Notes under the pieces: generated by a model
Databases searched by the model: none
What the model saw: only the letters and a program-made list of their open reading frames with translations
What the model was told of the DNA's origin: nothing
Virus record (IMG/VR): IMGVR_UViG_3300043409_001170
Coordinates: 1 to 30,111 of that record
Strand: one strand, 5' to 3'
DNA from: a virus
DNA length: 30,111 nucleotides
Made by a program: the position numbers and the translations under genes
In this document: positions 2,057 through 19,127 of the stretch, piece by piece
How positions within the stretch are numbered: position 1 is the first letter of the stretch
How the letters are laid out: every line of letters starts with the position of its first letter

Positions 2057-2553
2057 AGCACCTTCAAAAACACTTCATTGGTCTTGCGGTATCCAACCCT
2101 CGGCATGATGCTTGACAGCTTGCCATGAGCAGGCACCGTCATTGCAAAACTTGCCGCACCTAAATCTCGGGCCATGCTTTCAGCTTCCTTGATCAGCTTT
2201 AAACCGGCTCCAGACTTTCGGTGCGCCTTGCCGACGAACAGGCTTTCCATCGACGCTGACAGGTGACCATAGTGAGGTAGCACCGCAACAATCAAACCAG
2301 CGAACCCCACCAGCTTGCCGTCAATGAACGCACCGATCGCGTGTAGGTACCCCGCTTCTTCCATCTTGATATAGCTGTCCATCTGTGGGGCCGGTGCCGC
2401 CAACAATTCATTGGCCTGCTCCGCGTATTCCCGCAACAGATCGGCAATCTCAGGGCATGCAAACAGGTGTGGCACCGATGTTCGCATGACCTCACATTGC
2501 CTGCGAAGGATAGGTTCGGGCTTTTCCTTTACGGATACCTTAGAGCTTGGCAT
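2053..2553 (-). CDS. GNAT-family N-acetyltransferase of the head cluster
   Basis: A 166-aa protein whose C-terminal two thirds have the GNAT layout: a strand pair GAFIDGKLVGFAGLIV, the strand ASMESLFVGKAHRKSGAG with the acetyl-CoA pyrophosphate-binding R/Q-x-x-G-x-G/A-like loop (RKSGAG), helix LKLIKEAESMARDLGA, and a final strand-turn with RVGYRKTNEVFLKVL. GNAT proteins transfer an acetyl group from acetyl-CoA to amines; the phage target is unknown. The frame is open upstream to 2601, but the ATG at 2553 is preferred because GGAAGGAG sits 10 nt before it, inside the end of the large terminase gene, which it overlaps by 14 bp. GNAT genes between terminase and portal are frequent in podovirus genomes. 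Confidence 0.85.
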   Translation of the reverse strand: MPSSKVSVKEKPEPILRRQCEVMRTSVPHLFACPEIADLLREYAEQANELLAAPAPQMDSYIKMEEAGYLHAIGAFIDGKLVGFAGLIVAVLPHYGHLSASMESLFVGKAHRKSGAGLKLIKEAESMARDLGAASFAMTVPAHGKLSSIMPRVGYRKTNEVFLKVL

Positions 2554-4069
2554 ACGGATCGTACTCCTTCCGGTGCCGGTAACCGCCCAGCTCCATGACA
2601 ATCGAGCGTTTGGGCGTGTCCATCAGGCCCAGCACATAGGCCGATGCAAAGTCAGGCGATCGACCGATCTTGTCCATGATCTCTTCACGGCTGGCGACTT
2701 GGATGATCGGCCCCACCAGCTTCCATGTCGGCGCACACAGATCGGCAAACAGGCGCGGGTCAGGTGGCAGGCTGACACCCATGTTGTTTGATGGGTCGAG
2801 GGCTTCGCGCATGCGCCACCACAGCTCGGATCGCTGATTGCGGAACCTGAGCCTGCCGGATCGATCGGTGCCGAGCGCGCTTTCGGCCACGTTCACGCCC
2901 AGCACCTGTTGCCGCATCTCGGTCAGAAAATCGTAGGGGCTGGACCCGACACCGATCACATCGATATGCAGCGGCGCACCGTCTCGAGCGGCGGCCACCA
3001 CCAGACCGGCAACGGTCGGGCCATCGGGTGTGGCCTTGCCCTCATAGGTCAGCGGCTCGTCAAACCACATGCCATGCCGGCGGGCAATGATGGTCATGTC
3101 CTTGCCGCCTCGCGCCACATCGACCCCGACACTGTCCATCGGTTGCAGCTTGATCGGCTTGACCCACCGAGCCTGTGCCGCCTCGACCCATGCAGTCGGG
3201 ATCACTTGCCACGGATCATCTTCCATCCCCGCTTGGAAGTCACCGTTCAGCATCTGCGAGCGCAATGGCTCGGGCAGGGATTGCAGTTGCGCCATGTATC
3301 CAGTCCCCATCAGGTACGGGTTGTCGCTGATCCGCGATGGTATGAAGGTGCGGGACAGCGGTTTGATTGTTTCGCCATTGTGTTCGAACGGCTCGCCGGT
3401 CTCGACCTCTTCATCCTTGCCATCGACGGTTGCAAACCATCGCAGCTCACCGGCAACGGCTGGGTTGGGATGCTTCTTGTCTAGCCAAGGCCCAAAGAAC
3501 TTGACGATCCACCGGCCCTCTGCGGTGGTCGGCGGGTTGAAGGTGAGCAGGGCTTGGCACCGCTGATCGCGCACGATCGTTCGCAGCCACCCGAGCAGGA
3601 AGCGCACCGCGTCCTCGCGCATGTTCGCGGCCTCATCAAAAACCAACAGGTCATGCGGTCGGCCCTGATACTTTTTTTCGTCGCCGGCATTGGGGAAAGA
3701 GCCGAACTCGATCTGACACCGGACGCCATCGGCCCTTGTCGTGCGCCAGATGTTGTCCTTGCCATTGTATCCCTCGCGCCCGCCCAACAGCTCGGTGAAG
3801 CGATCGATCACGCCGGTCAGCTCGGTGCCGTTAAGCCGGAACACGCCAACCTTGCGGTGTTGCGTCAGTGCTTTGCCGCAGGCCAGATCGGTCTTGCCAC
3901 CACCGGCGGCACCACCATAGCCGATGATGTCGGCGCGGCTGCTGTAGGCCATGCTCTGTGGCCCCTCGAGCGGTCTCCAGATGGTCTTGTCGCTGACCAA
4001 TAACTGATCAAGCTCGGCGCGCTCTTCCGGTGTCAGGTATGACAGCAAGGACGGATCAAACGCCACCAT
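2540..4069 (-). CDS. terL: Terminase large subunit (packaging ATPase-nuclease)
   Basis: A 509-aa protein with the full two-part terminase plan. The ATPase part has a Walker A motif GGAAGGGKT (residues 52-60), a Walker B strand LLVFDEA (141-147), and a coupling segment LLTFNPPT shortly after. The nuclease part has the RuvC/RNase H-like start VGVDVARGGKD and later IDVIGVGSS. TerL cuts concatemeric DNA and pumps it through the portal by ATP hydrolysis. An upstream in-frame start exists at 4135, but the ATG at 4069 has GGAAGG 8 nt before it and overlaps the TerS stop by 14 bp, so it is chosen. The order TerS-TerL-GNAT-cupin-Ala-rich-portal is continuous and overlapped, indicating one transcript. 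Confidence 0.95.
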   Translation of the reverse strand: MVAFDPSLLSYLTPEERAELDQLLVSDKTIWRPLEGPQSMAYSSRADIIGYGGAAGGGKTDLACGKALTQHRKVGVFRLNGTELTGVIDRFTELLGGREGYNGKDNIWRTTRADGVRCQIEFGSFPNAGDEKKYQGRPHDLLVFDEAANMREDAVRFLLGWLRTIVRDQRCQALLTFNPPTTAEGRWIVKFFGPWLDKKHPNPAVAGELRWFATVDGKDEEVETGEPFEHNGETIKPLSRTFIPSRISDNPYLMGTGYMAQLQSLPEPLRSQMLNGDFQAGMEDDPWQVIPTAWVEAAQARWVKPIKLQPMDSVGVDVARGGKDMTIIARRHGMWFDEPLTYEGKATPDGPTVAGLVVAAARDGAPLHIDVIGVGSSPYDFLTEMRQQVLGVNVAESALGTDRSGRLRFRNQRSELWWRMREALDPSNNMGVSLPPDPRLFADLCAPTWKLVGPIIQVASREEIMDKIGRSPDFASAYVLGLMDTPKRSIVMELGGYRHRKEYDPYAKL

Positions 4070-4586
4070 CTTGCGCCTTCCGAGCGGCGGCAGCGGCGAT
4101 GATCGCTTGCAGCTTGGCTGCGCGCTGCGTGTCATCCATCGGCTCGATCAGCGGGTTGTCAGGATCACCCGAGATGGTGGTGCGGTTGCCGTACTTCTTG
4201 GGGTTCCACACGGCCAGCAGCTTCAGACGCTGCTCAACACGGTTGCGCGCCCATGCAACGTACCCGTTGTCGATCTTGCCTCCGCCCTCGCCGGCAATGC
4301 GTTCAGGCTGCGCGTCGATGATCTCCATCGTTTCATCAGCAATCGCATCGTGTCCGATATCCCGTGCCTGCGCGAAGCGTTGAGCAAACTCTTTATCTTT
4401 TTCCAACCACAGATAGACGGTTGAATAGTGAACGCCATTTTCTCTAGCCCATTGGCGCAGTGTTTTGCCTTCAGAAATCCATTTGATTAATTGATCTGCG
4501 GCCCATTGCGGCACCGGCTCAACCGGTCGGCCCATTTTTTTGCCTGATGACTTTCCACCGGTCTGGGGTTTGCGCTCGTCGGTCAT
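4056..4586 (-). CDS. terS: Terminase small subunit, Sf6 gp1-like
   Basis: A 176-aa protein. After a basic N-terminal tail (GKSSGKKMGRP) there is a helix-turn-helix-like region LRQWARENGVHYSTVYLWL (about residues 46-64), then the oligomerisation helices with FAQRFAQARDIGHDAIADE, and a conserved VAWARNRVEQRLKLLAVWNPKKYG segment. This matches the Sf6-type small terminase family, which binds the packaging site and regulates TerL. The ATG at 4586 is chosen; an in-frame ATG lies at 4625, and neither has a strong ribosome site, so translation may be coupled to the upstream HTH gene, which runs 68 bp into this one. Confidence 0.9.
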   Translation of the reverse strand: MTDERKPQTGGKSSGKKMGRPVEPVPQWAADQLIKWISEGKTLRQWARENGVHYSTVYLWLEKDKEFAQRFAQARDIGHDAIADETMEIIDAQPERIAGEGGGKIDNGYVAWARNRVEQRLKLLAVWNPKKYGNRTTISGDPDNPLIEPMDDTQRAAKLQAIIAAAAARKAQDGGV

Positions 4587-4797
4587 AGTTGCACAATTTC
4601 TGTATGGTTGATCGGGGCATGCCAAACATTTTGGCTAGTTTTCTATAGCCTATTTTCTGGTCTTCGTGAAGGTCACGAATTAGATCGACGGTGTCATCAG
4701 GTATTTTAGAATTGTGATGTGATGATCCTATCCGATATCCGCGTTCGTTAACCGCAATCACTCTGGCCGGTGCTTTAATCACTTGTTTGCCTTTCAA
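4519..4797 (-). CDS. Small helix-turn-helix protein, non-ATG start
   Basis: Up to 92 aa. The conserved block begins at IAVNERGYRIGSSHH and continues as TVDLIRDLHEDQKIGYRKLAKMFGMPRSTIQKLCNYDRRAQTP, a classical helix-turn-helix (residues about 37-65). This resembles small phage proteins with a resolvase/homeodomain-like HTH that often sit before terminase genes. There is no ATG near the expected start: TTG at 4797 overlaps the previous stop, and GTG at 4782 has GAAAGG about 7 nt before it; either could be used. The usual family end (RRAQTPxRWK) comes before residue 85, and the remaining tail overlaps terS. It probably binds DNA; the target is unknown. Confidence 0.7.
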   Translation of the reverse strand: MKGKQVIKAPARVIAVNERGYRIGSSHHNSKIPDDTVDLIRDLHEDQKIGYRKLAKMFGMPRSTIQKLCNYDRRAQTPDRWKVIRQKNGPTG

Positions 4798-5012
4798 GAT
4801 TGAGCCATCTCAGCGACACGCTTTTCTTTAGCGATCTGTTGTATGGATGGCAAATCACCAGTGACCTGTAATGCCCACTCGACTTTCGACCAGCTTTTGT
4901 ATTCGCCGTGGATTGCTTTGTTAATAATCTTTTTGGCCTTTGCCAGATCACGGCAATATTCACCTCGATTGCACCGGCCTTGGCATGGCGGGCAATCCTT
5001 CTTTTTGCTCAT
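4794..5012 (-). CDS. Small Cys-rich protein, possible zinc binder
   Basis: A 72-aa protein with four cysteines spaced C-x2-C-x3-C-x5-C in its first 20 residues (CPPCQGRCNRGEYC), followed by a basic helical region (DLAKAKKIINKAIHG) and a neutral C-terminal half. The cysteines could hold a zinc ion. The ribosome site GGGGGAGG is 2 nt from the ATG, rather close, and the ATG overlaps the stop of the upstream gene (ATGA), so coupled re-initiation is likely. No family was recognised. It lies between two other nucleic-acid-binding-like small genes. Confidence 0.7.
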   Translation of the reverse strand: MSKKKDCPPCQGRCNRGEYCRDLAKAKKIINKAIHGEYKSWSKVEWALQVTGDLPSIQQIAKEKRVAEMAQS

Positions 5013-5242
5013 GGCCTCCCCCTATCGAATAAATGGCGCATGACAGCCTTCAATTCTTCCACTGCTCGTTTCCCCCTGATCCGTTCCCGAGCCCCAAGGG
5101 CGTCCCTCCTTATGGCAAGGGGCCGCCTTAAAAGCTCACGGGCTTCACACTCTAAGGCCCAGCGCGGGCAATAGTTGCAAACCGTGTCGCCGGTTGCGAG
5201 GGTGATGGTGTCATCCCGTATGCACTTGCGGCACTTGGCCAT
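5009..5242 (-). CDS. Small protein with two CxxC pairs
   Basis: A 77-aa protein. The N-terminus has CRKC and CNYC, two CxxC pairs about 18 residues apart, which can form a zinc ribbon. The rest is a basic helical segment of the recurring phage pattern ECEARELLRRPLAIRRDAL...RGKRAVEELKAVM. The start is taken as the ATG at 5242 because it overlaps the preceding stop (TGATG); an in-frame extension to 5287 exists but would lie wholly inside the upstream gene. It ends with an ATGA overlap with the next gene. A nucleic-acid-binding role is plausible but not shown. Confidence 0.7.
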   Translation of the reverse strand: MAKCRKCIRDDTITLATGDTVCNYCPRWALECEARELLRRPLAIRRDALGARERIRGKRAVEELKAVMRHLFDRGRP

Positions 5243-5505
5243 CAGTGTTTGTCTGCCGGTGCCACCGAGGCAATCCAGCCCGAGCATATCTCAACAACCT
5301 CGCGTTTATTAATTTCAGCGAATGCCTGTTTAGATCGTTCTTCTGGGTGCTGATCCCAGCCGATCGAAAAGCTGGACACTGCGCCTTCCTGCTGAAACCA
5401 GAAACGCACTTCCGGTTCGCCTTCATCGTTTTGTTTCCGCATCATTACGATTTGCCCAAGATCGGGACTAAAAAAAAATTTACAAAATTCATGGTTTTTT
5501 TTCAT
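5242..5505 (-). CDS. Hypothetical protein, 87 aa
   Basis: The product starts MKKNHEFCKFFFSPDLGQIV and looks like a small alpha-beta protein with strands around QIVMMRKQNDEGEPEVRFWFQ and an acidic helix EERSKQAFAEINKREVVEIC. No family was recognised. Its ATG lies 17 bp inside the end of the upstream 39-aa membrane peptide gene; an AAGG element is about 10 nt before it. Two long A/T homopolymers lie in the first 45 bases (8 A after the ATG and a 9-T run shortly after), which would be prone to slippage. The stop overlaps the next ATG by one base (TGATG). Confidence 0.65.
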   Translation of the reverse strand: MKKNHEFCKFFFSPDLGQIVMMRKQNDEGEPEVRFWFQQEGAVSSFSIGWDQHPEERSKQAFAEINKREVVEICSGWIASVAPADKH

Positions 5506-5608
5506 TGTCTTTGACCTTGTCCCATAAACGTATCATCTCGATACCGATCCAGACTTGGACCAGAACCCACACAACAACAATTGCCAGAGTGATTTCATAA
5601 TCACCCAT
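5489..5608 (-). CDS. 39-aa single-span membrane peptide
   Basis: This short ORF (start MGDYEITLAIVVVWVLVQVW) has one clear transmembrane segment at residues 7-23, then a short amphipathic positively charged tail (MIRLWDKVKDNEKKP). The ATG overlaps the stop of the 21-aa peptide upstream (TGATG), and the end overlaps the 87-aa gene by 17 bp, so it sits exactly in register in the overlapped chain. This placement is the main evidence that it is real. The function is unknown; tiny membrane peptides of this kind in phage early regions can modulate host envelope or defence, which is only inference. Confidence 0.55.
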   Translation of the reverse strand: MGDYEITLAIVVVWVLVQVWIGIEMIRLWDKVKDNEKKP

Positions 5609-5673
5609 CACTGGCACCCAACCATCGAAACAGCGATCAGTGCCAATACAACAACTAGAACAGAACTATCCAT
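5608..5673 (-). CDS. 21-aa hydrophobic mini-peptide
   Basis: A 22-codon ORF with a strong ribosome site (GGAGGTGAGTG then ATG) and single-base overlaps with its neighbours on both sides (TGATG at each end). Apart from the first four residues the peptide is almost wholly hydrophobic (VLVVVLALIAVSMVG) and ends in CQ, so it would be a bare transmembrane helix. Its ribosome site region is identical over 17 bases to that of the 75-aa gene at 5900. The ORF is very short, so the call rests on the ribosome site and the junction pattern. Confidence 0.5.
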   Translation of the reverse strand: MDSSVLVVVLALIAVSMVGCQ

Positions 5674-5900
5674 CACTCACCTCCTGTTGCTTTGGCGAAT
5701 GTTGCCTTTGCCTCATTTGATACGTTCTCATCCCAATCCCGCTTGTTGATATGGTTTCGCATGTCAATCAGGGCTTCAACCAACTCTGCCTTGTCTTCAC
5801 GCAACCGTTCAATCTCGTCAGCGGCTTCATTTTTTAAATCACGGTCAGGGTTATCTCGCCACCCTACAAACCTGTCCCGCAACCGTTCAACGATGTCCAT
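5673..5900 (-). CDS. MDI-type coiled-coil protein (Ea22/Ead-like)
   Basis: A 75-aa protein beginning MDIVERLRDRFVGW followed by an acidic coiled-coil helix NEAADEIERLREDKAELVEALI. Small proteins starting MxDIVERLRD and continuing with AADEIERLR are widespread in phage early regions (Ead/Ea22-like); their role is not established. The ATG at 5900 is preferred over an adjacent in-frame GTG because GGAGGTGAGTG precedes it. It overlaps the stop region of the preceding gene by 14 bp and resembles that gene's product at its N-terminus, suggesting an old duplication. Confidence 0.7.
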   Translation of the reverse strand: MDIVERLRDRFVGWRDNPDRDLKNEAADEIERLREDKAELVEALIDMRNHINKRDWDENVSNEAKATFAKATGGE

Positions 5901-6096
5901 CACTCACCTCCTTGTATTTTTCTTCCCACTTATCTGCAATATCTTTGGCAATCGATATGTTTGTGATCCACTCCGCCTCACGTTTGTATGCTGCTCTCAA
6001 TTTTGCATGCAATTCTTCTAATTCCTCATATGCTTCACGATGAAGTGGATCGCCTAAAAAGGCATAGGCATCTTTTAATTTTGTAATAATGTCCAT
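5887..6096 (-). CDS. MDI-type coiled-coil protein, paralogue of the next gene
   Basis: A 69-aa protein starting MDIITKLKDAYAFL, followed by a long charged helix (REAYEELEELHAKLRAAYKREAEW) and a C-terminal helix rich in Lys and Glu. The beginning (MDI, two residues, then K/R-L-K/R-D) and the coiled-coil composition match the protein encoded just downstream. The ATG at 6096 has AAAGG 11 nt before it; an in-frame TTG at 6114 is possible but less likely. It overlaps both neighbours. Function unknown. Confidence 0.65.
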   Translation of the reverse strand: MDIITKLKDAYAFLGDPLHREAYEELEELHAKLRAAYKREAEWITNISIAKDIADKWEEKYKEVSDGHR

Positions 6097-6212
6097 TGTG
6101 TTTTGCCTTTGCAAACTGGGATTTGTGAAATTTTATCGACCACCATAAACATACCGAACAACAGGCCGGCGCAGATTGTTGACCAAAACAAATTTTCAAT
6201 GATGTAAATCAT
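6075..6212 (-). CDS. 45-aa single-span membrane peptide
   Basis: An ORF of 46 codons beginning MIYIIENLFWSTICAGLLFG. Residues 8-25 form a transmembrane helix and the tail is short and positively charged (DKISQIPVCKGK). The ATG overlaps the stop of the 32-aa peptide upstream by one base (TGATG), and the gene fills what would otherwise be a gap between 6097 and 6212, running 22 bp into the next gene. GGGGGC lies before the start. Function unknown. Confidence 0.55.
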   Translation of the reverse strand: MIYIIENLFWSTICAGLLFGMFMVVDKISQIPVCKGKTQWTLLQN

Positions 6213-6310
6213 CAATCGCCCCCAAAAATAAATTCGTGAGCATAAGACAAGATGCCCAAAAGACAGGTGGTGCCAATGCAGACAACAATATCAAGCATGT
6301 CTCGGGTCAT
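6212..6310 (-). CDS. 32-aa single-span membrane peptide
   Basis: A 33-codon ORF beginning MTRDMLDIVVCIGTTCLLGI with one transmembrane segment (residues 6-23) and a short acidic end (HEFIFGGD). Two adjacent ATGs exist (6313 and 6310). The second overlaps the upstream stop as TGATG and has GGAGGGA at normal distance, so it is used. The longer frame to 6400 would add a soluble Cys-containing stretch lying inside the upstream gene and lacks its own ribosome site. Function unknown. Confidence 0.55.
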   Translation of the reverse strand: MTRDMLDIVVCIGTTCLLGILSYAHEFIFGGD

Positions 6311-6534
6311 CATTCCCTCCATGTCACAGCTTTCACAGCCCACATTTGCGCGGTCACCAAAGCGTTGATAGCTGACACAATAAGTTGCCGGTGCAGCCAC
6401 GATGTCGGCGGGGCCAGCTCTATCAAATCGATAACGGCTGCAATTGCCTGCTTGATCCTCAGCACCTTTTCATCACCGCTCGGGTTAAAATCAAGGCCAA
6501 CCATTTTCTGGCCGGTGGTCAATTTGTCAGTCAT
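6310..6534 (-). CDS. Acb2/Tad1-hairpin-like small protein, candidate anti-CBASS sponge
   Basis: A 74-aa protein with the pattern VGLDFNPSGDEKVLRIKQ (residues 12-29), a helix IAAVIDLIE (31-39), a short linker containing R49, and a last helix ending ALVTAQMWAVKAVTW (58-72). This two-helix plan with NPSG near the start and a terminal A-x-M-W-A-V-K-A helix matches the phage proteins grouped under the Acb2/Tad1 hairpin domain. The founding Acb2 proteins bind cyclic di- and trinucleotides and so block CBASS immunity. The match is by eye; whether this member binds nucleotides is not known. A strong AAGGAGG precedes the ATG, and the gene sits in a chain of accessory mini-genes. Confidence 0.65.
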   Translation of the reverse strand: MTDKLTTGQKMVGLDFNPSGDEKVLRIKQAIAAVIDLIELAPPTSWLHRQLIVSAINALVTAQMWAVKAVTWRE

Positions 6535-6781
6535 TTCCGGCCTCCTTTGTGCCGAGCAGCTCGGCCACCTCCTCAACAATCTGTTCGTGCAATTTCTGAC
6601 TGGCCTCGATCTGCTCTTTGTACGCGGTCACCAGCTTGAGGTATTGGCCGTGCGCTATATCCACCGCCATGATCGCGTGTTGATATCTCTCGTCATCGAT
6701 CTCGAGGCTTTCAACTTTATTTAAAATCTCAATCCACATGGCGCATGCAAGCACCACATCATTCGGGTCAATATCAGTCAT
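6527..6781 (-). CDS. Hypothetical acidic helical protein, 84 aa
   Basis: The product starts MTDIDPNDVVLACAMWIEIL and is almost all helical and acidic, with a likely coiled coil in the C-terminal half (KEQIEASQKLHEQIVEEVAELLG). The ATG at 6781 follows AGGGA by 7 nt and overlaps the upstream stop (ATGA). The end overlaps the Acb2-like gene by 8 bp, so the two are co-translated. No family recognised. Confidence 0.65.
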   Translation of the reverse strand: MTDIDPNDVVLACAMWIEILNKVESLEIDDERYQHAIMAVDIAHGQYLKLVTAYKEQIEASQKLHEQIVEEVAELLGTKEAGND

Positions 6782-6987
6782 CTGCAATCCCTCTCGATTT
6801 TGTAGTGAGGCTGACCACCGCGCACCCGTGTGCAATAGGTGTCGTGATTAATAACAGGCTGTATCGATACGTTAAGATGTTTAATTTCTGACGGGCTAGA
6901 TGCCGTGTCAACGGCAATGATGGCTGCAACCATCACTGCTATCAACAACAAGCTGTCTAACATCCAATCAATATGTCGATCGTTCAT
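6778..6987 (-). CDS. 69-aa protein with N-terminal membrane segment
   Basis: After a short charged start (MNDRHIDWML) comes a long hydrophobic stretch DSLLLIAVMVAAIIAV (residues 11-26) that can act as a membrane anchor or uncleaved signal. The remaining 43 residues contain two cysteines and would lie in the periplasm if the anchor orients N-in. AGAGGATCGAG precedes the ATG. It overlaps the upstream gene by 20 bp and the next by 4. Function unknown. Confidence 0.65.
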   Translation of the reverse strand: MNDRHIDWMLDSLLLIAVMVAAIIAVDTASSPSEIKHLNVSIQPVINHDTYCTRVRGGQPHYKIERDCR

Positions 6988-7366
6988 CTCGATCCTCTGG
7001 CATTTTCATTCCGATCAGAGCATAGACACGGCGCACCACTGCCTCTCGATCTTCCGTGCTTATTTCCTGTGGTTTATAAAACCGATCTTTTGATTTTTCA
7101 AACGATGGGTCAAGCTGCTCTGGCCATTCGCATGGCACCATGTACTGGCGACCCTGTCGCATTTGGCTAGCCAAAAATGAAGCCTTCTTGTCAAAGCCCA
7201 TCCCTTTAAAGTACCGGTACCACTCTCGCCCCTGCGGCCCGCGTTCGATTATAAAACCAAGCATGCCGTCAGCCCCTTTGTTCGCATACATAAAATTAAG
7301 GGCCATCTGATCCCACGGGGTCAGCTCTGGTTGAGCTGCTGTTTTTTTCTGAAATCTAGCATCCAT
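6968..7366 (-). CDS. Hypothetical protein, 132 aa, next to the replication initiator
   Basis: A soluble protein with a Gly- and Arg-rich middle (RGPQGREWYRYFKGMGFDKKASFLASQMRQG is split here by position: residues 43-73), an EWPEQLDPSFEKSKDRFY stretch, and a C-terminal helix REAVVRRVYALIG. No family recognised. A strong GGAGG precedes the ATG, and the start lies 46 bp inside the end of the replication initiator gene, an unusually long overlap that suggests the two are expressed together. Confidence 0.65.
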   Translation of the reverse strand: MDARFQKKTAAQPELTPWDQMALNFMYANKGADGMLGFIIERGPQGREWYRYFKGMGFDKKASFLASQMRQGRQYMVPCEWPEQLDPSFEKSKDRFYKPQEISTEDREAVVRRVYALIGMKMPEDRDERSTY

Positions 7367-8031
7367 TGTTGTGCCTCCTGTTTTGTGCGCTCGCGCTCTT
7401 CATCTGACATCACCCGATCAACCTGATCCAGTGTTAGCTGGTGCTGATCATTCCACCGCTCCGCGTTCAACCATGTCGCCGGATGCGGGATGTACTGTTC
7501 ATCGGTCGAAAACACTTTTGATTTTTTCCAACCGTCAACTGCATTCAAAAGATGCTCTGGCGATGCCTTGCCGATAGCCTTGGCATATGCCTTTGCTGCC
7601 GCCACTTTGGAAATCTTGCGCGGGTATGCCTGCCAGAACTCTTCGAACAGGATTGCTACGCTCGCACGAGAATATGTCTCTCCCTCTGTCTCTGTCTCTG
7701 TCTCTGTCTCTGGTGCATCAACTTGATATCGAGCTGATATCAAATCGATATCATCGTGTATCAGCCAATGTTTTAGCTTGGTAAGTGTTTGAATTGTCTT
7801 GCTTTCCGATATTCTTAACCGAAATGCCAGCTTCCGCAGCTCCGGCAACTTGCCTTCCTGCTCGTCATCCTCACTTGCGATCAGCCACAGGGCCACAAGT
7901 GCCTTTGCAGCGTCTCCATCCAGCTCGTGCCAGTCAGGGTCTTCGAGAATATCTCGGTACAATTTGACCCACGGTGGGCGGCGATCTTTAAAATGCTGGA
8001 ACTTAGACCAGCCTTTAATCCGGTACACCAT
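7321..8031 (-). CDS. Replication initiator / primosomal protein (phage O / DnaD-like)
   Basis: A 236-aa protein in two parts. Residues 1-105 contain FKDRRPPWVKLYRDILEDPDWHEL and a winged-helix-like region RKLAFRLRISESKTIQTLTKL, the N-terminal DNA-binding type seen in phage replication proteins. Residues 130-200 contain FWQAYPRKISKVAAAKAY and YIPHPATWLNAERW, a signature of phage O/DnaD-like primosomal partners. The two are joined by an ETETETETE linker encoded by a hexanucleotide repeat. Such proteins bind the phage origin and load host helicase. It is followed by SSB-like and RusA genes upstream in the same operon. ATG overlaps the HNH stop (TAATG). Confidence 0.8.
   Translation of the reverse strand: MVYRIKGWSKFQHFKDRRPPWVKLYRDILEDPDWHELDGDAAKALVALWLIASEDDEQEGKLPELRKLAFRLRISESKTIQTLTKLKHWLIHDDIDLISARYQVDAPETETETETEGETYSRASVAILFEEFWQAYPRKISKVAAAKAYAKAIGKASPEHLLNAVDGWKKSKVFSTDEQYIPHPATWLNAERWNDQHQLTLDQVDRVMSDEERERTKQEAQQWMLDFRKKQQLNQS
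7684..7711 (-). repeat. Hexanucleotide tandem repeat coding for a Glu-Thr linker
   Basis: On the plus strand CTCTGT is repeated four times perfectly followed by a partial copy. Read on the minus strand it is GAGACA, coding for Glu-Thr dipeptides at about residues 109-116 of the replication initiator, between its two domains. Gain or loss of one unit changes the linker by two residues and keeps the frame. Confidence 0.95.
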
Positions 8032-8465
8032 TACGCACCCGCCTTCCGCGCCTTGCCTTTGCGGGCAGGGCTGTTATCGCCGGTGCGAGACCGGCAATAC
8101 TCAATGAAGCGTGGCATGTTCATATTTTCTTTTTGGGTTCCCCAGCGAAGGTTCTCTGGCCGGTTGTCTAGGGCATCCTCATTAAGGTGGATGACCACCG
8201 CCCGAGGAAACGGCGCAGGGCCGTGGAACGCCTCGCAGACCAACCGGTGTACTTTCATGTTGCCCAATGCCCGCGACTGGATGCTGTAATACTCATGCAG
8301 CGCGGTCTTGTTTGCCCGCTGTTTCACGCCATAACGCGGGATCGTTTGATATGTCCGCTCGCCACCGAACGGCATTGGCATCGATCCCTCGGGCAATTTA
8401 ACCCGCCCGAGGCTCGAGGCCTGTACGCCGGCCTTTGATGGTACCGGCTTCCAGATTTCTTCCAT
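8031..8465 (-). CDS. HNH homing endonuclease (NUMOD4 + HNH)
   Basis: A 144-aa protein. Residues 1-24 (MEEIWKPVP...SSLGRVK) form a NUMOD4-type DNA-binding module. A later VHRLVCEAFHGP block (72-83) and VIHLNEDALDNRPENLRWGT (91-110) form the HNH_3 nuclease with H73, H93, N101 and N105 in the expected places. Free-standing HNH enzymes of this type cut DNA and spread themselves between phage genomes. The ATG at 8465 follows GGAGGGAAAC; the in-frame ATG at 8510 has no ribosome site. It sits between the SSB-like gene and the replication initiator without visibly breaking either. Confidence 0.88.
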   Translation of the reverse strand: MEEIWKPVPSKAGVQASSLGRVKLPEGSMPMPFGGERTYQTIPRYGVKQRANKTALHEYYSIQSRALGNMKVHRLVCEAFHGPAPFPRAVVIHLNEDALDNRPENLRWGTQKENMNMPRFIEYCRSRTGDNSPARKGKARKAGA

Positions 8466-8485
8466 GTTTCCCTCCAATAGATGCA

Positions 8486-8518
8486 CTGATCTTTGATTTA
8501 GATCAGGCATGGTGTCAA
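8486..8518 (-). promoter_or_regulatory. TTGACA box and perfect inverted repeat before the HNH gene
   Basis: In the 54-bp gap before the HNH start, a TTGACA hexamer (8513-8518, minus strand) in the same GTTGACAC context as the two plus-strand promoters is followed by an inverted repeat with arms CTGATCT / AGATCAG separated by 7 nt (8486-8506). No good -10 hexamer is found at 16-18 nt, so a promoter is doubtful; the inverted repeat could be an operator or a small hairpin. Confidence 0.35.
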
Positions 8519-11112: not shown

Positions 11113-11325
11113 ATGATCAACGTATCAATTCACGGCACGACCGGATTTTATATCTCGGAAATTTTCACCCACCAGTGCGACCATACTTTTGTAACCCGCG
11201 AGATCGTGTTTACCAGTGATCGCGGTGACAAATTTAAGGTCACAATGTTTGCAGGAAAAGAGGACGAGCATCGCCTTGATCCTCTAGTTCCGACCAATGC
11301 ATTCTTGCTTAAACACTCATGCTAA
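11113..11325 (+). CDS. Hypothetical protein, 70 aa
   Basis: The product starts MINVSIHGTTGFYISEIFTH and is beta-rich (CDHTFVTREIVFTSDRGDKFKVTMFAG), with no transmembrane segment. AAGGGAGAGAAAC precedes the ATG. It ends 11 nt before the YqaJ start, inside whose leader the next ribosome site lies. No family recognised; it may assist the recombination genes by position only. Confidence 0.65.
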   Translation: MINVSIHGTTGFYISEIFTHQCDHTFVTREIVFTSDRGDKFKVTMFAGKEDEHRLDPLVPTNAFLLKHSC

Positions 11326-11336
11326 GGAGATCGATC

Positions 11337-12287
11337 ATGACAAAAGAAATTATTGAAATCACCAGCCGTGACCAGTGGCTGGCCGAACGCACCCGAGACA
11401 TCACCAGCACCGAGGCCGCAGCCCTCTATGGCCTGTCGCCTTACCTGACGCAGTTTGAATTGTTTCACCAGAAACGCGATGGTGTGGTCGTGTCGTTTGA
11501 TCCGAACGAGCGCATGCGGTGGGGTACCCGTCTCGAGGACGCGATCGCCAAGGGCGCAGCCGAGGACAATGGCTGGCAGATCGAGAAGCTCGATGTCTAT
11601 ATGCGTGACACCATCAACCGCATGGGCAGCTCGTTTGATTACGAGATCACTTCAGCCGGTGAAGGGCGCGGCATTCTCGAGATCAAGAATGTCGATGGCA
11701 TGCAGTATCGCCAGAACTGGATCGATGATGGCAACGGCAACATCGAGGCACCCGAGCATATCGAGCTGCAAATCCAGCATCAAATGGAAGTGTCCGGCTA
11801 TGAATGGACGGCACTGGCCGCGCTTGTCGGTGGCAACGAATTAAAAATAACAATCCGCAAACGCGACCATGAGATCGGTCAAGATTTGCGCGCCCGCTCT
11901 GCCGCGTTCTGGGCCAGCATCGCATCCAACAAGGCACCGGCACCAGACTATGTGGCCGATGCCGAATACATGATTAAGAAACTGTACAACAAGGCCGAGG
12001 CTGACCGCGTTCTTGAGGCAAACGAAATGCTCGAGGACATGATAAAGCAATACAATTTTATCAGCAGGGAAATGTCTGACCTTGAAAAAATAAAGGACCA
12101 GTACAGGGCGCAGATACTTGAGGCCATCGGCGAGGCCAGCAAGGTCACCAGCTCGATTGGCACCATCTCATGCGGGATGGTGAAGCCGAGCCTTGGCACC
12201 CTGATCACACCAGAGATGGTCGGCACCCATGTTGGTGGCCGATCTGGATATCGCGGTTTCCGTTTCACAGCAAAGAAGGACAAATGA
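11337..12287 (+). CDS. YqaJ-type phage exonuclease (lambda Exo-like)
   Basis: A 316-aa protein. It carries ITSTEAAALYGLSPY (residues 22-36), MRWGTRLEDAI (60-70), the catalytic aspartate in SSFDYEI (D101) and the E-x-K pair in GILEIKNVD (E115, K117), then HIELQIQHQMEVSGY. These are the YqaJ/PD-(D/E)XK viral recombinase motifs. The enzyme resects duplex ends 5' to 3' so that a paired annealase can load. The C-terminal 80 residues hold a coiled coil (EANEMLEDMIKQ to AQILEAIGE). AAGGAGATCGATC precedes the ATG. It is followed by recT, the usual partner. Confidence 0.92.
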   Translation: MTKEIIEITSRDQWLAERTRDITSTEAAALYGLSPYLTQFELFHQKRDGVVVSFDPNERMRWGTRLEDAIAKGAAEDNGWQIEKLDVYMRDTINRMGSSFDYEITSAGEGRGILEIKNVDGMQYRQNWIDDGNGNIEAPEHIELQIQHQMEVSGYEWTALAALVGGNELKITIRKRDHEIGQDLRARSAAFWASIASNKAPAPDYVADAEYMIKKLYNKAEADRVLEANEMLEDMIKQYNFISREMSDLEKIKDQYRAQILEAIGEASKVTSSIGTISCGMVKPSLGTLITPEMVGTHVGGRSGYRGFRFTAKKDK

Positions 12288-12288
12288 T

Positions 12289-13164
12289 ATGACAACCACC
12301 AAAGCACTCACACCGATGGAGGATGTGCGCGGCACTTTGCAGCGCATGCAGCCCGAATTCATGGCCGCGCTTCCTGCACAAATACCTGTGGATAAGTTTG
12401 TCCGCACCACATTGACCGCGATCCAGATGAACCCAGCACTGCTCAATGCCGATCGCCGATCCCTACTCGGCTCATGCATGAAGGCAGCGCAGGACGGGTT
12501 GTTGTGCGATGGCCGCGAGGCAGCACTGGTCATGTTTAAAAACACCGTCCAGTACATGCCAATGTATGCGGGTATCTTAAAGAAAATCCGCAACAGCGGA
12601 GAGCTGGCCACCATCTCGGCACAGGTCGTGTACGACAAAGACCAGTTCGACTATACGCTCGGCGACGAAGAACGGATCAGCCACAAGCCGTTTCTTGGTG
12701 CCGATCGCGGCAAACCAATTGTTGTGTACGCCATAGCGAAGACCAAGGACGGCGCAATCTATCGCGAAGTCATGTCGGTGGCCGAGATCGAAAAGGTGCG
12801 GGCTGTCAGCCGCGCCAGTGGCAACGGTCCTTGGGTTCAGTGGTGGGATGAGATGGCCAAGAAGACCGTCATTCGCCGGTTGGCTAAACGCCTGCCATCG
12901 AGCGCAGATGTCGATCAGGTGTTCGATCACGACAACGATGCCACAGGGATCACAGAGCAGCCCCAGCAGGCCGTTGTTTCTGATGCCGCTGTGTCAGGCA
13001 CCGCGCCCAAACAAATCAGCCGGCTTAAGCGTTCTATTGCGGAGCAGACCGAGGTGCTGGACACAATCGAAATGGTGAAGACCGAGGATTTGATTGATCC
13101 GGTGACGGGCGAAGTGTTGGAGGTGACCGATGTTGAAGTTGTTAACGACAAAGCAACTGTCTGA
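12289..13164 (+). CDS. recT: RecT-family single-strand annealing protein
   Basis: A 291-aa protein of the usual RecT length. It contains FVRTTLTAIQMNPALLNADR, SLLGSCMKAAQDGLLCDGRE, MPMYAGILKKIRNSGEL and VVYDKDQFDYTLGDEE, in RecT order. RecT coats resected DNA and anneals complementary strands during phage recombination and concatemer formation. The C-terminal 70 residues (after VDQVFDHDND) are low in structure and rich in Glu and Thr. AAGGA lies about 10 nt before the ATG, inside the end of the exonuclease gene. The last 35 bp overlap the HTH gene. Confidence 0.93.
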   Translation: MTTTKALTPMEDVRGTLQRMQPEFMAALPAQIPVDKFVRTTLTAIQMNPALLNADRRSLLGSCMKAAQDGLLCDGREAALVMFKNTVQYMPMYAGILKKIRNSGELATISAQVVYDKDQFDYTLGDEERISHKPFLGADRGKPIVVYAIAKTKDGAIYREVMSVAEIEKVRAVSRASGNGPWVQWWDEMAKKTVIRRLAKRLPSSADVDQVFDHDNDATGITEQPQQAVVSDAAVSGTAPKQISRLKRSIAEQTEVLDTIEMVKTEDLIDPVTGEVLEVTDVEVVNDKATV

Positions 13165-13407: not shown

Positions 13408-14004
13408 TTAAGCACTGAATTTTTCATATGCGGTTTCAAGTTTTTCATCATATTTGTTTTGAGCATACGCAGGCCCATTATAGCCACGGGCAAAGCCTGC
13501 CCAGTTCTTGCTTTGCAGCTCGTCCAACAGGCCAGCCGACTTAATAAAATTTGCCATGTGGCGAAGCTGATTGGCTTCAGAAATCATGGCTTCTTCAACC
13601 ATTTCTTGAGCGGATCGGCATCCAGCCAATTTGTAATTGCTGCCCATGATTTGACCAAGCCCCCACGAAACAGAGCGTAGCGCACCATCAAGATCAATTT
13701 CACATGCTGCCTCAATCTCTGCATAGACAGCGTCTGAACCTTTTGGATAAGGTCGTTCACCCCACTTTGGATATGCAAGACCCGCGTCAGCAGCCAATTG
13801 TAAAGCATCTGGTTTATCCTTCAGCATCTTGTAAAAGTAATGACGTTCAAACAAAGCCTTTGGCCGGCCAGCTTTATCAAAACCAGACCCGCCGGTTTCA
13901 ACAGATAGCACGGCACGGAGGGCGGCGGGTTCAATGTCGAGAGCCTCTGCCGTAGCATCGATGTCACCCGCTTGCATGGGGATGGCTGCACCTACAAAAT
14001 TCAT
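13408..14004 (-). CDS. Endolysin, N-acetylmuramidase
   Basis: A 198-aa protein of the N-acetylmuramidase family (PF11860, formerly DUF3380). SVETGGSGFD (residues 34-43) holds the likely catalytic Glu36; PKALFERHYFYKML, VSWGLGQIMGSNY and FARGYNGPAYAQNKYD follow in the family order. It cleaves the glycan strands of peptidoglycan. There is no peptidoglycan-binding domain and no signal or SAR segment, so a holin is needed for export. AGGAGAGAAAAA precedes the ATG, which overlaps the holin stop (ATGA). Confidence 0.93.
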   Translation of the reverse strand: MNFVGAAIPMQAGDIDATAEALDIEPAALRAVLSVETGGSGFDKAGRPKALFERHYFYKMLKDKPDALQLAADAGLAYPKWGERPYPKGSDAVYAEIEAACEIDLDGALRSVSWGLGQIMGSNYKLAGCRSAQEMVEEAMISEANQLRHMANFIKSAGLLDELQSKNWAGFARGYNGPAYAQNKYDEKLETAYEKFSA

Positions 14005-15711: not shown

Positions 15712-15717
15712 ATTATA
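15712..15717 (-). promoter_or_regulatory. Perfect TATAAT box before the lysis cassette
   Basis: TATAAT on the minus strand overlaps the stop codon of fibre 2 and lies 49 nt before the first lysis gene. The best -35 at 17 nt is TGGTGA (three of six matches), so promoter strength is uncertain. Confidence 0.35.
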
Positions 15718-16657
15718 CAACCTCCGCCGATGCGTCACCAGTTGCAGAAAACCCAACAGCCCCATACCCTGTGCCGCCTGCAAAAGTCGCATTAACTTTA
15801 GCAAAATCCACCGTTGTGCTTGATGAATTTAGTGATATACCAACCGCGCTTACTGTTGCTCCTGTAAGGGTTGGGTTGGTTCTTTTTGTAACTTTATACG
15901 GAAATAAATATGAGCCTAAACCGCTCGAACTATAAGCTGTATTAGCTGGAATATCGAATTGCGCTGAGTTCATTTTTTCGTAATACCGCTGACACAGCGC
16001 AAGCTCCGGCCCATAAAGCCGTCGTTCAAATGGCGTGGCGACAGTGCCGACTTCAAGCTGTGCATTGCCAATTTGCCATGTGCCAGATATTTGCGCCCCA
16101 ACCGTAAACAGGATTTCAATGCCCGTTGTAGCGGCGGCAGGGACAGCAATGTTTACCGTATATTGCGTTAAAGTCGCTGTAACGGTAAACGTGCCAGTTG
16201 CTATCTGGGTCTTGGTTGGTGTCCCGATTGTGCCAAATGTATCGGCAGTGGTTGTAGCGTATGAAGCTGTCCAAGTTACAGTGGTAAGCAAACTGTTAGC
16301 TATGTTCACAGACAAGGTGCATGTTTGCCCTGCAAGGTCATACGAGTTCAACTGTTCAATGCGCTGACCAATGCCTACAGCAGTGACAGATGCCGCGCCA
16401 GTGACTTGCAAAAGGTTCTTATTGTTGGTTGCCCCTGCCACTTGAGCGGCGGTTACGTTCGCCCCAGTGGAATATACAAACCAGCGATCAACACAAGGGT
16501 AACCCGTGGATATTGTAGGTACGGTTGTTCCTGCTGTCACAGTTGCCGAAGTAGCGCGTTGGGCAACATACATATTACCATTAATGATGCGGTTACGCAT
16601 ACCAAGCGGACCGCCATCAAAGGCAAGCATCGAGTTGGTTACTTGTGTCAGTGCCAT
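15713..16657 (-). CDS. Tail fibre 2, headless copy of fibre 1 with a different tip
   Basis: A 314-aa protein. After a 20-residue start (MALTQVTNSMLAFDGGPLGM) residues 21-228 repeat residues 510-717 of fibre 1 with only about 20 changes, most of them in the last 25 residues. The module holds NGNMYVAQRAT, CVDRWFVYSTG and LCQRYYEKM, a beta-rich fibre domain pattern seen in many phage fibres. The last 86 residues (from NSAQFDIPANTAYS) are unlike fibre 1 and should form the receptor-contacting tip. It lacks the T7 gp17-like anchor, so it would attach through another protein or be an alternative tip. GGAG lies 8 nt before the ATG. Confidence 0.85.
   Translation of the reverse strand: MALTQVTNSMLAFDGGPLGMRNRIINGNMYVAQRATSATVTAGTTVPTISTGYPCVDRWFVYSTGANVTAAQVAGATNNKNLLQVTGAASVTAVGIGQRIEQLNSYDLAGQTCTLSVNIANSLLTTVTWTASYATTTADTFGTIGTPTKTQIATGTFTVTATLTQYTVNIAVPAAATTGIEILFTVGAQISGTWQIGNAQLEVGTVATPFERRLYGPELALCQRYYEKMNSAQFDIPANTAYSSSGLGSYLFPYKVTKRTNPTLTGATVSAVGISLNSSSTTVDFAKVNATFAGGTGYGAVGFSATGDASAEVV
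15974..16597 (-). repeat. Fibre module copy A (copy B at 16977-17600)
   Basis: Direct repeat of 624 bp, offset 1003 bp from copy B with no length change. Synonymous differences are scattered along it, except 16311-16424, which is identical to 17314-17427 for 114 bp. Confidence 0.9.
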
Positions 16658-16737
16658 GATGCGGCTCCATCAGCGGGTGCGATTGTAAGTTTACTAGCAG
16701 CTACAAGTGCCATATATTGCGCGTTTGTGTACATCAT
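16648..16737 (-). CDS. 29-aa ORF coupling fibre 1 to fibre 2
   Basis: A 30-codon ORF in the gap between the two fibre genes (start MMYTNAQYMALVAASKLTIA). Two adjacent ATGs overlap the fibre 1 stop, with GGAG at 5 or 8 nt, and its stop overlaps the fibre 2 start by 10 bp. It may be a real mini-protein or simply keep ribosomes moving to fibre 2. No function can be assigned. Confidence 0.45.
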   Translation of the reverse strand: MMYTNAQYMALVAASKLTIAPADGAASWH

Positions 16738-19127
16738 GGTATCTCCGAACTAAGACTAAATGTAGTTGACGCCCCGCCGTAACCCGCTGCGGTAATAGTT
16801 GGGTCCATACTTCCTGCGCTTGGGCTTAACGGACTAATTTGTATTGCTGATGTATTAGCAAATAGACCCGCCGATATAGTGGCGGCTACGGGCGTTGCCC
16901 TCATAGCTGACCAAATCAAAGGAGAGTAAAGATTAGCTGGACCACTACCAGCGTACATATAAACGCGTGCAATCATTGTTTGATAATACCGTTGGCACAT
17001 CGACAACTGGTTACTGAATATCTGCCGTTCAAATGACGTGGCGACAGTGCCGACTTCAAATTGTGCATTGCCAATCTGCCAAGTTCCAGATGTCTGTGCG
17101 CCAACTGTAAACAGAATTTCAATGCCCGTTGTAGCGGCGGCAGGAACAGCAATGTTAGCCGTATACTGCGTCAGGGTTGAAGTGACAGTAAACGTGCCAG
17201 TTGCAATCTGGGTCTTGGTTGGTGTTCCAATTGTGCCAAATGTATCAGCGGTGGTAGTGGCGTATGAAGCAGTCCATGTCACAGTAGTAAGCAGACTGTT
17301 GGCTATGTTTACGGACAAGGTGCATGTTTGCCCTGCAAGGTCATACGAGTTCAACTGTTCAATGCGCTGACCAATGCCTACAGCAGTGACAGATGCCGCG
17401 CCAGTGACTTGCAAAAGGTTCTTATTGCTACCAGCCCCTGCCACTTGGGCCGCAGTTACGTTTGCCCCAGTAGAATATACGAACCAACGATCAACACATG
17501 GGTAGCCAGCGGATATTGTTGGAACGGCTGTTCCTGCTGTTACAGTTGCCGATGTGGCGCGTTGAGCAACATACATATTTCCGTTGATGAGCTTGTTGCG
17601 AAGGAACGATGACCCCATGGCAACCGTTCCAGCAGTAGTTAGATTGCCGGAAGAAGTCCAAGATGGACCACCAGTAGAAAGTTTAGCTGGGGTGACTGTA
17701 CCATCGCTAGGTGTGCCAATAGAAAGTGGCTGTGTCCACACAACCTCAATATTAGCCGTACCAGAAGGAGGGGCTGTCGAAAAAGTTAAGGTAGTACCTG
17801 ATAGGCTGTATGTTGCCTTGGATTGATAAACACCGCTGACATAGACATAGGTGTTGTTCTCAACGCTAGGATCGCCAGAAAGCGTAAATGCAGTCTGAGA
17901 ACCAGTGCCGTTAAATGCATCGACTACAACATTGGTTGCGCCAAGACCTGATGTAGATGCAAACCATTGGTTAGTTTCAAGATCAGCTACAAATGTTGTT
18001 TGAGTATATTGCAGCCCAATGCTTGCGCTAGTTGCACCATTGATTGTGTCAGAGCCAGAGCGCGCAATGTTTACGGCATTGCTGTCTGCTGACCACTTAA
18101 CAATAGCTATTTTAAAGCCATCGGGAAGACCGCTGATCAAAGGCAATGTAATTGTAATTGCGCCGCTAGTTGTGGTCACTCGCAACAAATCGCCTGCGTC
18201 AGTCAAAGCAACCGTATAGTTGGCACTTTTATCTTGAACGGCAGAATATAAGCCAGAAGCCACAGAGGCCGCTGCTGCGGCTGCGCTGGCCGCTGCGGAT
18301 GCTGCCTGTGTGGGCGCGTCGATGATTGCCGCCATGTTGGTGGCCGCGCTGTTTACCGATGCAATGTTTGTGGCAACAGTGGTCACATTAGAATTGTTGC
18401 TGGCAACGGTGGTGACGTTAGAAGCAATGCCAGCAACAGTGTTAATGTTAGTGCTGTTGCTATTAACAGCATTAATGTTGGTGCTATTACCAGCCACAGC
18501 ATTAATGTTTGTAGAGTTGCCCGCAACCGAGGTGACATTGGCAGATATCCCCGCAACCGTGGTGACATTTGCGTTGTTGCCTGCCACCGTGTTGACGTTT
18601 GAAATGTTTGTGGCAACGGTATTGACCGAGCTGATATTGGTGGCAACGGTATCGATGTTGTCCGCGCTGTCGGCGATCCGCATGATGTCGGCAACCAGTG
18701 CATCGGCATCTTCCGCGCTGGTGATCGGCAACTGAGCTGCACGGTCTAGACCTTCCTGCAACTGCTGGATTTGGATCGTTGCCCGATCGAGAGCCTGCGT
18801 AATGACCTCGGGATAGAACCCGCCCTGATTGGTCAGGTCAGTCTGTTGCAGATTGGCGATGTCAGAGGTGATAACAAGATTGTATCCCGCCGCAAGCGCA
18901 CCGGCCACCAGCGTGATGCTGCCACCGGCGTTTGAATTCTGATCGGCATTAAGCGTCACCGTATAGTCGGTGGTTAAGGCCAGTGTGGTTTCAGTGCTTG
19001 TTGAAACCGTAAGTTTCACAACCTCGAGATCAGAGGCTTGGAAAACTTTAAACGAGAACGCAAATGTTGCGGCAGTCCCGTTGCCGATATAAGGACCGGC
19101 CTTGCGGTTGGTTGAACTGATCGTCAT
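16734..19127 (-). CDS. Tail fibre 1, T7 gp17-like anchor, repeat shaft and variable tip
   Basis: A 797-aa protein. Residues 1-125 resemble the T7 gp17 N-terminal tail-attachment domain (GPYIGNGTAATFAFSFKVF, LTTDYTVTLNADQNSNAGGS, GGFYPEVITQALDRATIQIQ), which binds the tail. Residues 161-270 are eleven 10-residue repeats of the type VAxNxxNVxT, a shaft. Residues 275-290 are an Ala-rich turn. A beta region with TFSTAPPSGTANIEVVWTQP (about 450) follows, then the module shared with fibre 2 (510-717) and an 80-residue unique tip. It should be the main receptor-binding fibre. AAGGAG lies 9 nt before the ATG. Confidence 0.92.
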   Translation of the reverse strand: MTISSTNRKAGPYIGNGTAATFAFSFKVFQASDLEVVKLTVSTSTETTLALTTDYTVTLNADQNSNAGGSITLVAGALAAGYNLVITSDIANLQQTDLTNQGGFYPEVITQALDRATIQIQQLQEGLDRAAQLPITSAEDADALVADIMRIADSADNIDTVATNISSVNTVATNISNVNTVAGNNANVTTVAGISANVTSVAGNSTNINAVAGNSTNINAVNSNSTNINTVAGIASNVTTVASNNSNVTTVATNIASVNSAATNMAAIIDAPTQAASAAASAAAAAASVASGLYSAVQDKSANYTVALTDAGDLLRVTTTSGAITITLPLISGLPDGFKIAIVKWSADSNAVNIARSGSDTINGATSASIGLQYTQTTFVADLETNQWFASTSGLGATNVVVDAFNGTGSQTAFTLSGDPSVENNTYVYVSGVYQSKATYSLSGTTLTFSTAPPSGTANIEVVWTQPLSIGTPSDGTVTPAKLSTGGPSWTSSGNLTTAGTVAMGSSFLRNKLINGNMYVAQRATSATVTAGTAVPTISAGYPCVDRWFVYSTGANVTAAQVAGAGSNKNLLQVTGAASVTAVGIGQRIEQLNSYDLAGQTCTLSVNIANSLLTTVTWTASYATTTADTFGTIGTPTKTQIATGTFTVTSTLTQYTANIAVPAAATTGIEILFTVGAQTSGTWQIGNAQFEVGTVATSFERQIFSNQLSMCQRYYQTMIARVYMYAGSGPANLYSPLIWSAMRATPVAATISAGLFANTSAIQISPLSPSAGSMDPTITAAGYGGASTTFSLSSEIP
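16977..17600 (-). repeat. Fibre module copy B (copy A at 15974-16597)
   Basis: Second copy of the 624-bp module, inside fibre 1. See copy A. The identical 114-bp tract is 17314-17427; elsewhere silent differences are frequent, so the two copies diverged before that tract was made uniform. Confidence 0.9.
18318..18647 (-). repeat. Eleven degenerate 30-bp repeats coding decapeptides
   Basis: The repeats code for 10-residue units in perfect register (for example VATNISSVNT, VAGNNANVTT, VAGNSTNINA twice in a row). Units differ by several bases, so they are old at DNA level but kept at protein level. Each would give one turn or strand of a fibrous shaft. Confidence 0.95.

Follow-up and report, generated by a model that had tools for sequence, protein, structure and literature searches.

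The window analyzed here is a stretch of 30,111 bases that makes up the whole virus record and is not drawn from any larger genome sequence. The genes recognized in it, together with the gene for a 74-amino acid (aa) Acb2/Tad1-hairpin protein (hereafter the hairpin protein) and its surroundings, are arranged as follows:

2540-4135, minus strand: terminase large subunit
within 4056-4625, minus strand: Sf6-like terminase small subunit
5673-7366, minus strand: small-gene block that includes the hairpin gene, with conserved flanks at 5009-5505 and 7321-8031
6310-6534, minus strand: 74-aa Acb2/Tad1-hairpin protein, from the ATG through the stop codon
6541-6548, minus strand: perfect Shine-Dalgarno sequence AAAGGAGG, 6 nt before the ATG of the hairpin gene
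7321-8031, minus strand: replication initiator
8031-8510, minus strand: HNH endonuclease
11319-13164, plus strand: RecE- and RecT-like genes
13408-14004, minus strand: endolysin
15713-19127, minus strand: tail-fiber proteins

In addition, a minus-strand open reading frame (ORF) of 2917 aa at 19189-27942 occupies nearly one third of the record.

The preliminary description of this DNA gave no strand for the hairpin gene, which lies on the minus strand; the plus strand of 6310-6534 is interrupted by a stop in that frame. The minus-strand translation of this interval, MTDKLTTGQKMVGLDFNPSGDEKVLRIKQAIAAVIDLIELAPPTSWLHRQLIVSAINALVTAQMWAVKAVTWRE followed by the stop, bears out the earlier account of a 74-aa protein with NPSG near its start and a terminal AQMWAVKAVTW helix, and places these motifs at residues 17-20 and 62-72, respectively. 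The start of the gene is well supported by AAAGGAGG and by the fact that it overlaps by 8 nt the ORF before it, which stops at 6527.

Gene neighborhood

The nearest relatives found for this phage are Limnohabitans phage DC33, whose terminase is 81% identical, and the isolate ctEw122. Both share with the record, in the same order, the replication initiator, the small genes at 5009-5287 and 5242-5505, and the terminase genes, but the hairpin gene and the other small genes of 5673-7366 have no match in either phage. Since the hairpin gene is missing from the two nearest relatives and lies between conserved genes, it is part of a variable block, and this block is probably a cargo site that fits accessory genes such as those for anti-defense functions. 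The preliminary description had placed the gene among mini-genes that may form an anti-defense island. The variable position of the block, absent from both relatives, favors cargo; however, no neighbor scanned (5242-8031 and several small ORFs beyond) matches an anti-defense family, and an island defined by gene identity was rejected, as the scanned neighbors lack informative families. A fixed gene neighborhood was also looked for among relatives of the hairpin protein and not found, the shared neighbor clusters being small, with portal and terminase genes the most frequent.

Two minor points concern these flanks and relatives. The 5009-5287 protein, conserved in both nearest phage relatives, matches DUF7696 (E=8.2e-9). 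The DC33 record (PQ492659.1) is filed under Inoviridae, yet it is 39 kb long and has large and small terminase matches, so its taxonomy line looks wrong.

Membership in the Acb2/Tad1 hairpin family

A search with the Pfam model PF24729 (Acb2_Tad1_hairpin), suggested in the preliminary description, places the hairpin protein narrowly above the cut-off (27.6 bits against 27, a margin of 0.6 bits; E=3.3e-6). Other comparisons with the single protein gave little: phrog_717 was its sole match among the PHROGs (E=0.042), convincing only once relatives were added, and neither a phmmer search of the PDB nor a search of NCBIfam returned a match. Scores against a PaP2 profile (E=0.7) and a Vs.4 profile (E=0.053) were weak, so the link to Acb2 runs through the relatives of the protein. 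Given the narrow margin over the PF24729 cut-off, testing moved from the hairpin protein alone to its family.

These relatives number 318 in IMG/VR, as matches to six short peptide patterns, together with 90 phage records, and by that count the subtype, named here for its FNPSG motif, is common. From the 318 matches, 80 IMG/VR loci were kept, and 55 aligned members were tested. A family profile built without the hairpin protein gives it 88.9 bits (E=9e-27), compared with about 6 bits for unrelated neighbor proteins, and on this evidence the protein can be assigned firmly to the FNPSG-type family. All 55 aligned members match PF24729 (best 1.2e-14) and 54 of them match PHROG 717 (best 3.3e-10), the group from which Jenson et al. 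drew the 198 homologs of T4 Vs.4 (PMC10097602).

Comparison of profiles by hhalign supports the same relationship. The family profile aligns with that of 67 proteins of the PaP2 gp26 (PaP2 Acb2) lineage with a probability of 96.1% and a score of 48.4, against at most 1.5% and 15.0 for 39 column shuffles and 0.1% for the reversed profile; alignment with the Vs.4 lineage reaches 64%. In addition, Vs.4 (PDB 7UQ2) is the sole genuine sequence match of the family profile in the PDB, and the PaP2-lineage profile ranks the family as a group above neighbor-protein controls, with the hairpin protein lowest of the family at 6.0 bits, where the best controls also lie. Profile similarity of this kind argues firmly for homology of the family to Acb2. 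The grouping of the protein with the Acb2/Tad1 hairpin domain that was first proposed from its sequence is upheld by its own PF24729 score and by its relatives' matches to PF24729, PHROG 717 and the PaP2 lineage.

Predicted fold and comparison with known sponges

The AlphaFold2 monomer of the hairpin protein (mean pLDDT 94.7) has helices at residues 7-11, 22-39 and 46-71, and so shows the plan reported for Acb2 (PMC10419184), in which a short helix at the N-terminus precedes two long ones. The two-helix protein described earlier is recovered in the two long helices, to which the model adds a short third helix in front. The expectation that structure prediction would give the Acb2 helix plan is likewise borne out by the predicted protomer, but a Foldseek search of the PDB returned nothing at E<=0.001 and no sponge (Acb2, Vs.4 or Tad1) at all, so that one refuting test named in the preliminary description was half negative. 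This Foldseek result is uncalibrated and carries little weight, because the PaP2 Acb2 model meant as its control had been folded with no alignment and was weak (pLDDT 70.6). The best BFVD entries (E 1.6e-4 and 3.5e-4) carry the name Acb2/Tad1 hairpin protein. The hairpin protein stands on an outlying branch of a known family, an apparently unsolved branch for which, as for the FNPSG subtype as a whole, no solved structure was found.

Among characterized proteins, Pseudomonas Acb2 (PaP2 gp26; PaMx33 Acb2; PDB 8H2J) is a homologous hairpin by profile comparison (96%) with the same helix plan, but it is 93 aa long, has GYRDLS where FNPSG is found here, and has R67, T74 and Q77 in place of Q, N and V. 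T4 Vs.4/Acb2 (PDB 7UQ2) belongs to the same Pfam and PHROG family and has a similar end (...MWA..(K/R)A..); it differs in its N-terminal loop and helix start, its Y8, H11 and F82 are without proven counterpart here, and its profile match reaches only E=0.019. Tad1 (PDB 8SMD), a prophage gcADPR/CBASS sponge, has the hairpin domain named in PF24729, preceded by an N-terminal antiparallel beta-sheet (PMC12043709), whereas the 74-aa hairpin protein is predicted by AlphaFold2 to consist of three helices only; as the model has no strands, membership in Tad1 was rejected. Also close are proteins of the same subfamily in Pasteurella phage Pmp11, Enterobacter phage EcP1 and Flavobacterium columnare phages (41-48% identity), all hypothetical in the phage records ('Acb2/Tad1 hairpin domain-containing').

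Hexamer-interface and ligand positions

In Vs.4, the residues that bind cGAMP are Y8, H11, K23, R79 and F82, while L29, A66, A73 and A77 hold the hexamer together (PMC10097602). The segments of the hairpin protein that are compared with these residues are encoded as follows:

6475-6489, minus strand: FNPSG codons (residues 16-20); F16 and P18 invariant in 112/112 relatives, N17 in 110/112
6418-6471, minus strand: helix 22-39, which holds K28 (PaP2 Acb2 K26, Vs.4 K23)
6322-6399, minus strand: helix 46-71, with A55/A62/A66 and K68; positions 50/57/60 are Q/N/V, not R/T/Q
6319-6354, minus strand: TAQMWAVKAVTW signature (residues 61-72)

The hhalign register against PaP2 Acb2 equates family positions K28, R50, T57, Q60 and K68 with K26, R67, T74, Q77 and R85, respectively. 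The small residues of the Vs.4 hexamer interface are kept (A66/A73/A77 correspond to A55/A62/A66), as are both basic ligand positions, K23 as K28 and R79 as K68; the equation of K28 with K23 was made by hhalign against PaP2 plus inspection, and K28 is invariant in all 112 other relatives.

For the base-stacking aromatics of known Acb2 proteins (Tyr8/Tyr11 and Phe82) there is no certain counterpart, as the joint alignment leaves the N-terminus unaligned and is uncertain at both ends. We propose that FNPSG is the counterpart of the ligand loop GYKPHT (Vs.4) or GYRDLS (PaP2). F16 would then replace Y8 of Vs.4, and the helix start would be shorter by about one turn; W72 is a possible stand-in for Vs.4 F82; the joint alignment recovers neither pairing, and at its uncertain end it sets Vs.4 position 82 against T71. 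Position 7 is Phe or Tyr in nearly all relatives and Thr in the hairpin protein.

A candidate cyclic-nucleotide sponge

With the gene, its family membership, the protomer plan, the interface alanines and the two basic ligand positions established here, the reading that we favor, as reasonably probable, is that the hairpin protein is a cyclic-nucleotide sponge of the Acb2 (Vs.4) family. A small all-helical protein would be made during infection, and its protomers would most likely assemble as a hexamer of helical hairpins. This hexamer would hold the host's cyclic di- and/or trinucleotide alarm signals tightly and leave them uncleaved, which would keep the effector of CBASS, or of a similar nucleotide-signaled defense, switched off.

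The helical hairpin could also have been reused in another role that involves no nucleotide binding, for example as a small structural component, a regulator or a protein-binding module. The lack of a solved-structure match, the unplaced stacking aromatics, the many changed conserved columns and the frequent location of relatives next to genes for terminase or portal, and not next to recognized anti-defense genes, are all compatible with such a role. It is nevertheless improbable, as FNPSG, K28 and K68 are near-invariant, lie at or near Acb2 ligand positions and persist in phages of many hosts, and as this gene, in contrast to a structural one, varies in position among phages and is missing from both nearest relatives.

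Replacement of the Arg-Thr-Gln stripe in a divergent branch

Among 115 aligned sequences, 77 have an Arg-Thr-Gln stripe at the helix-3 positions 50/57/60, as does PaP2 Acb2 (R67, T74 and Q77). The stripe is kept in the Pmp11 and EcP1 proteins, whereas the hairpin protein has Gln-Asn-Val. Overall, the hairpin protein departs from the family in 8 of 35 conserved columns (the median of its relatives is 1). Together with its long branch (1.18), these deviations could indicate a decaying, non-working copy, but the ORF is intact, the ribosome-binding site is strong, the signature helix is untouched, and N57 and V60 are common to other intact members of the branch; decay is therefore very improbable.

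After thinning, 19 of 98 sequences lack all three letters of the stripe, and they cluster on the tree, where 2 label changes are needed and shuffles need 17.7; the branch that contains the cluster has support of 89/87, a moderate result from few columns. FNPSG, K28, K68 and T71 are near-invariant with and without the stripe. We take the stripe, from R67 of PaMx33 Acb2, to be the trinucleotide site. Its replacement here makes it probable that the hairpin protein has another ligand range than PaP2/PaMx33 Acb2. It is conceivable, if rather doubtful, that the branch, by swapping the stripe that its sister group conserves and keeping FNPSG, K28 and K68, came to sequester different or narrower immune nucleotides than any tested Acb2.

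The same pattern bears on a further alternative, namely that the protein is a sponge of the same build directed at a non-CBASS signal or at a single ligand class, having lost the Arg-Thr-Gln site and kept the FNPSG/K28/K68 site. In addition to the clustering of stripe-less sequences and the constancy of the second site in both groups, this alternative draws on reviews that report a varied ligand range of Acb2 homologs and gcADPR binding by Tad1. However, T4 Vs.4, a working cGAMP sponge, keeps the Thr of the stripe but has Asp in place of the Arg and Lys in place of the Gln; since this proven sponge also lacks the Arg and Gln, loss of the stripe is not an argument against function, and the target system need not have changed. 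The modest branch support and the presumed nature of the stripe's trinucleotide role also weigh against a changed target, which we consider unlikely, though less so than reuse of the hairpin or decay, and the sponge of the Acb2 family remains the preferred reading.

Annotation of the FNPSG subtype

Most tested members of the branch that contains the stripe-less cluster score under the PF24729 cut-off. For example, FNPSG relatives such as L223, L226 and L254 have Val-Asn-Val or Leu-Gly-Leu at positions 50/57/60 and fall under the Pfam cut-off, and therefore the current model under-annotates this branch. Should FNPSG members prove to bind cyclic nucleotides, a function could be given to a large number of 'hypothetical' phage proteins, and the split between Arg-Thr-Gln and Gln-Asn-Val would provide natural variants for the mapping of ligand specificity. 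Acb2 sponges determine whether a phage survives CBASS and, conversely, whether it sets off Panoptes (PMC12657218). In one relative, Providencia phage PSTCR8lys (L086, 4992-5215), the FNPSG hairpin gene is split across two frames, which reflects either a sequencing error or a broken gene.
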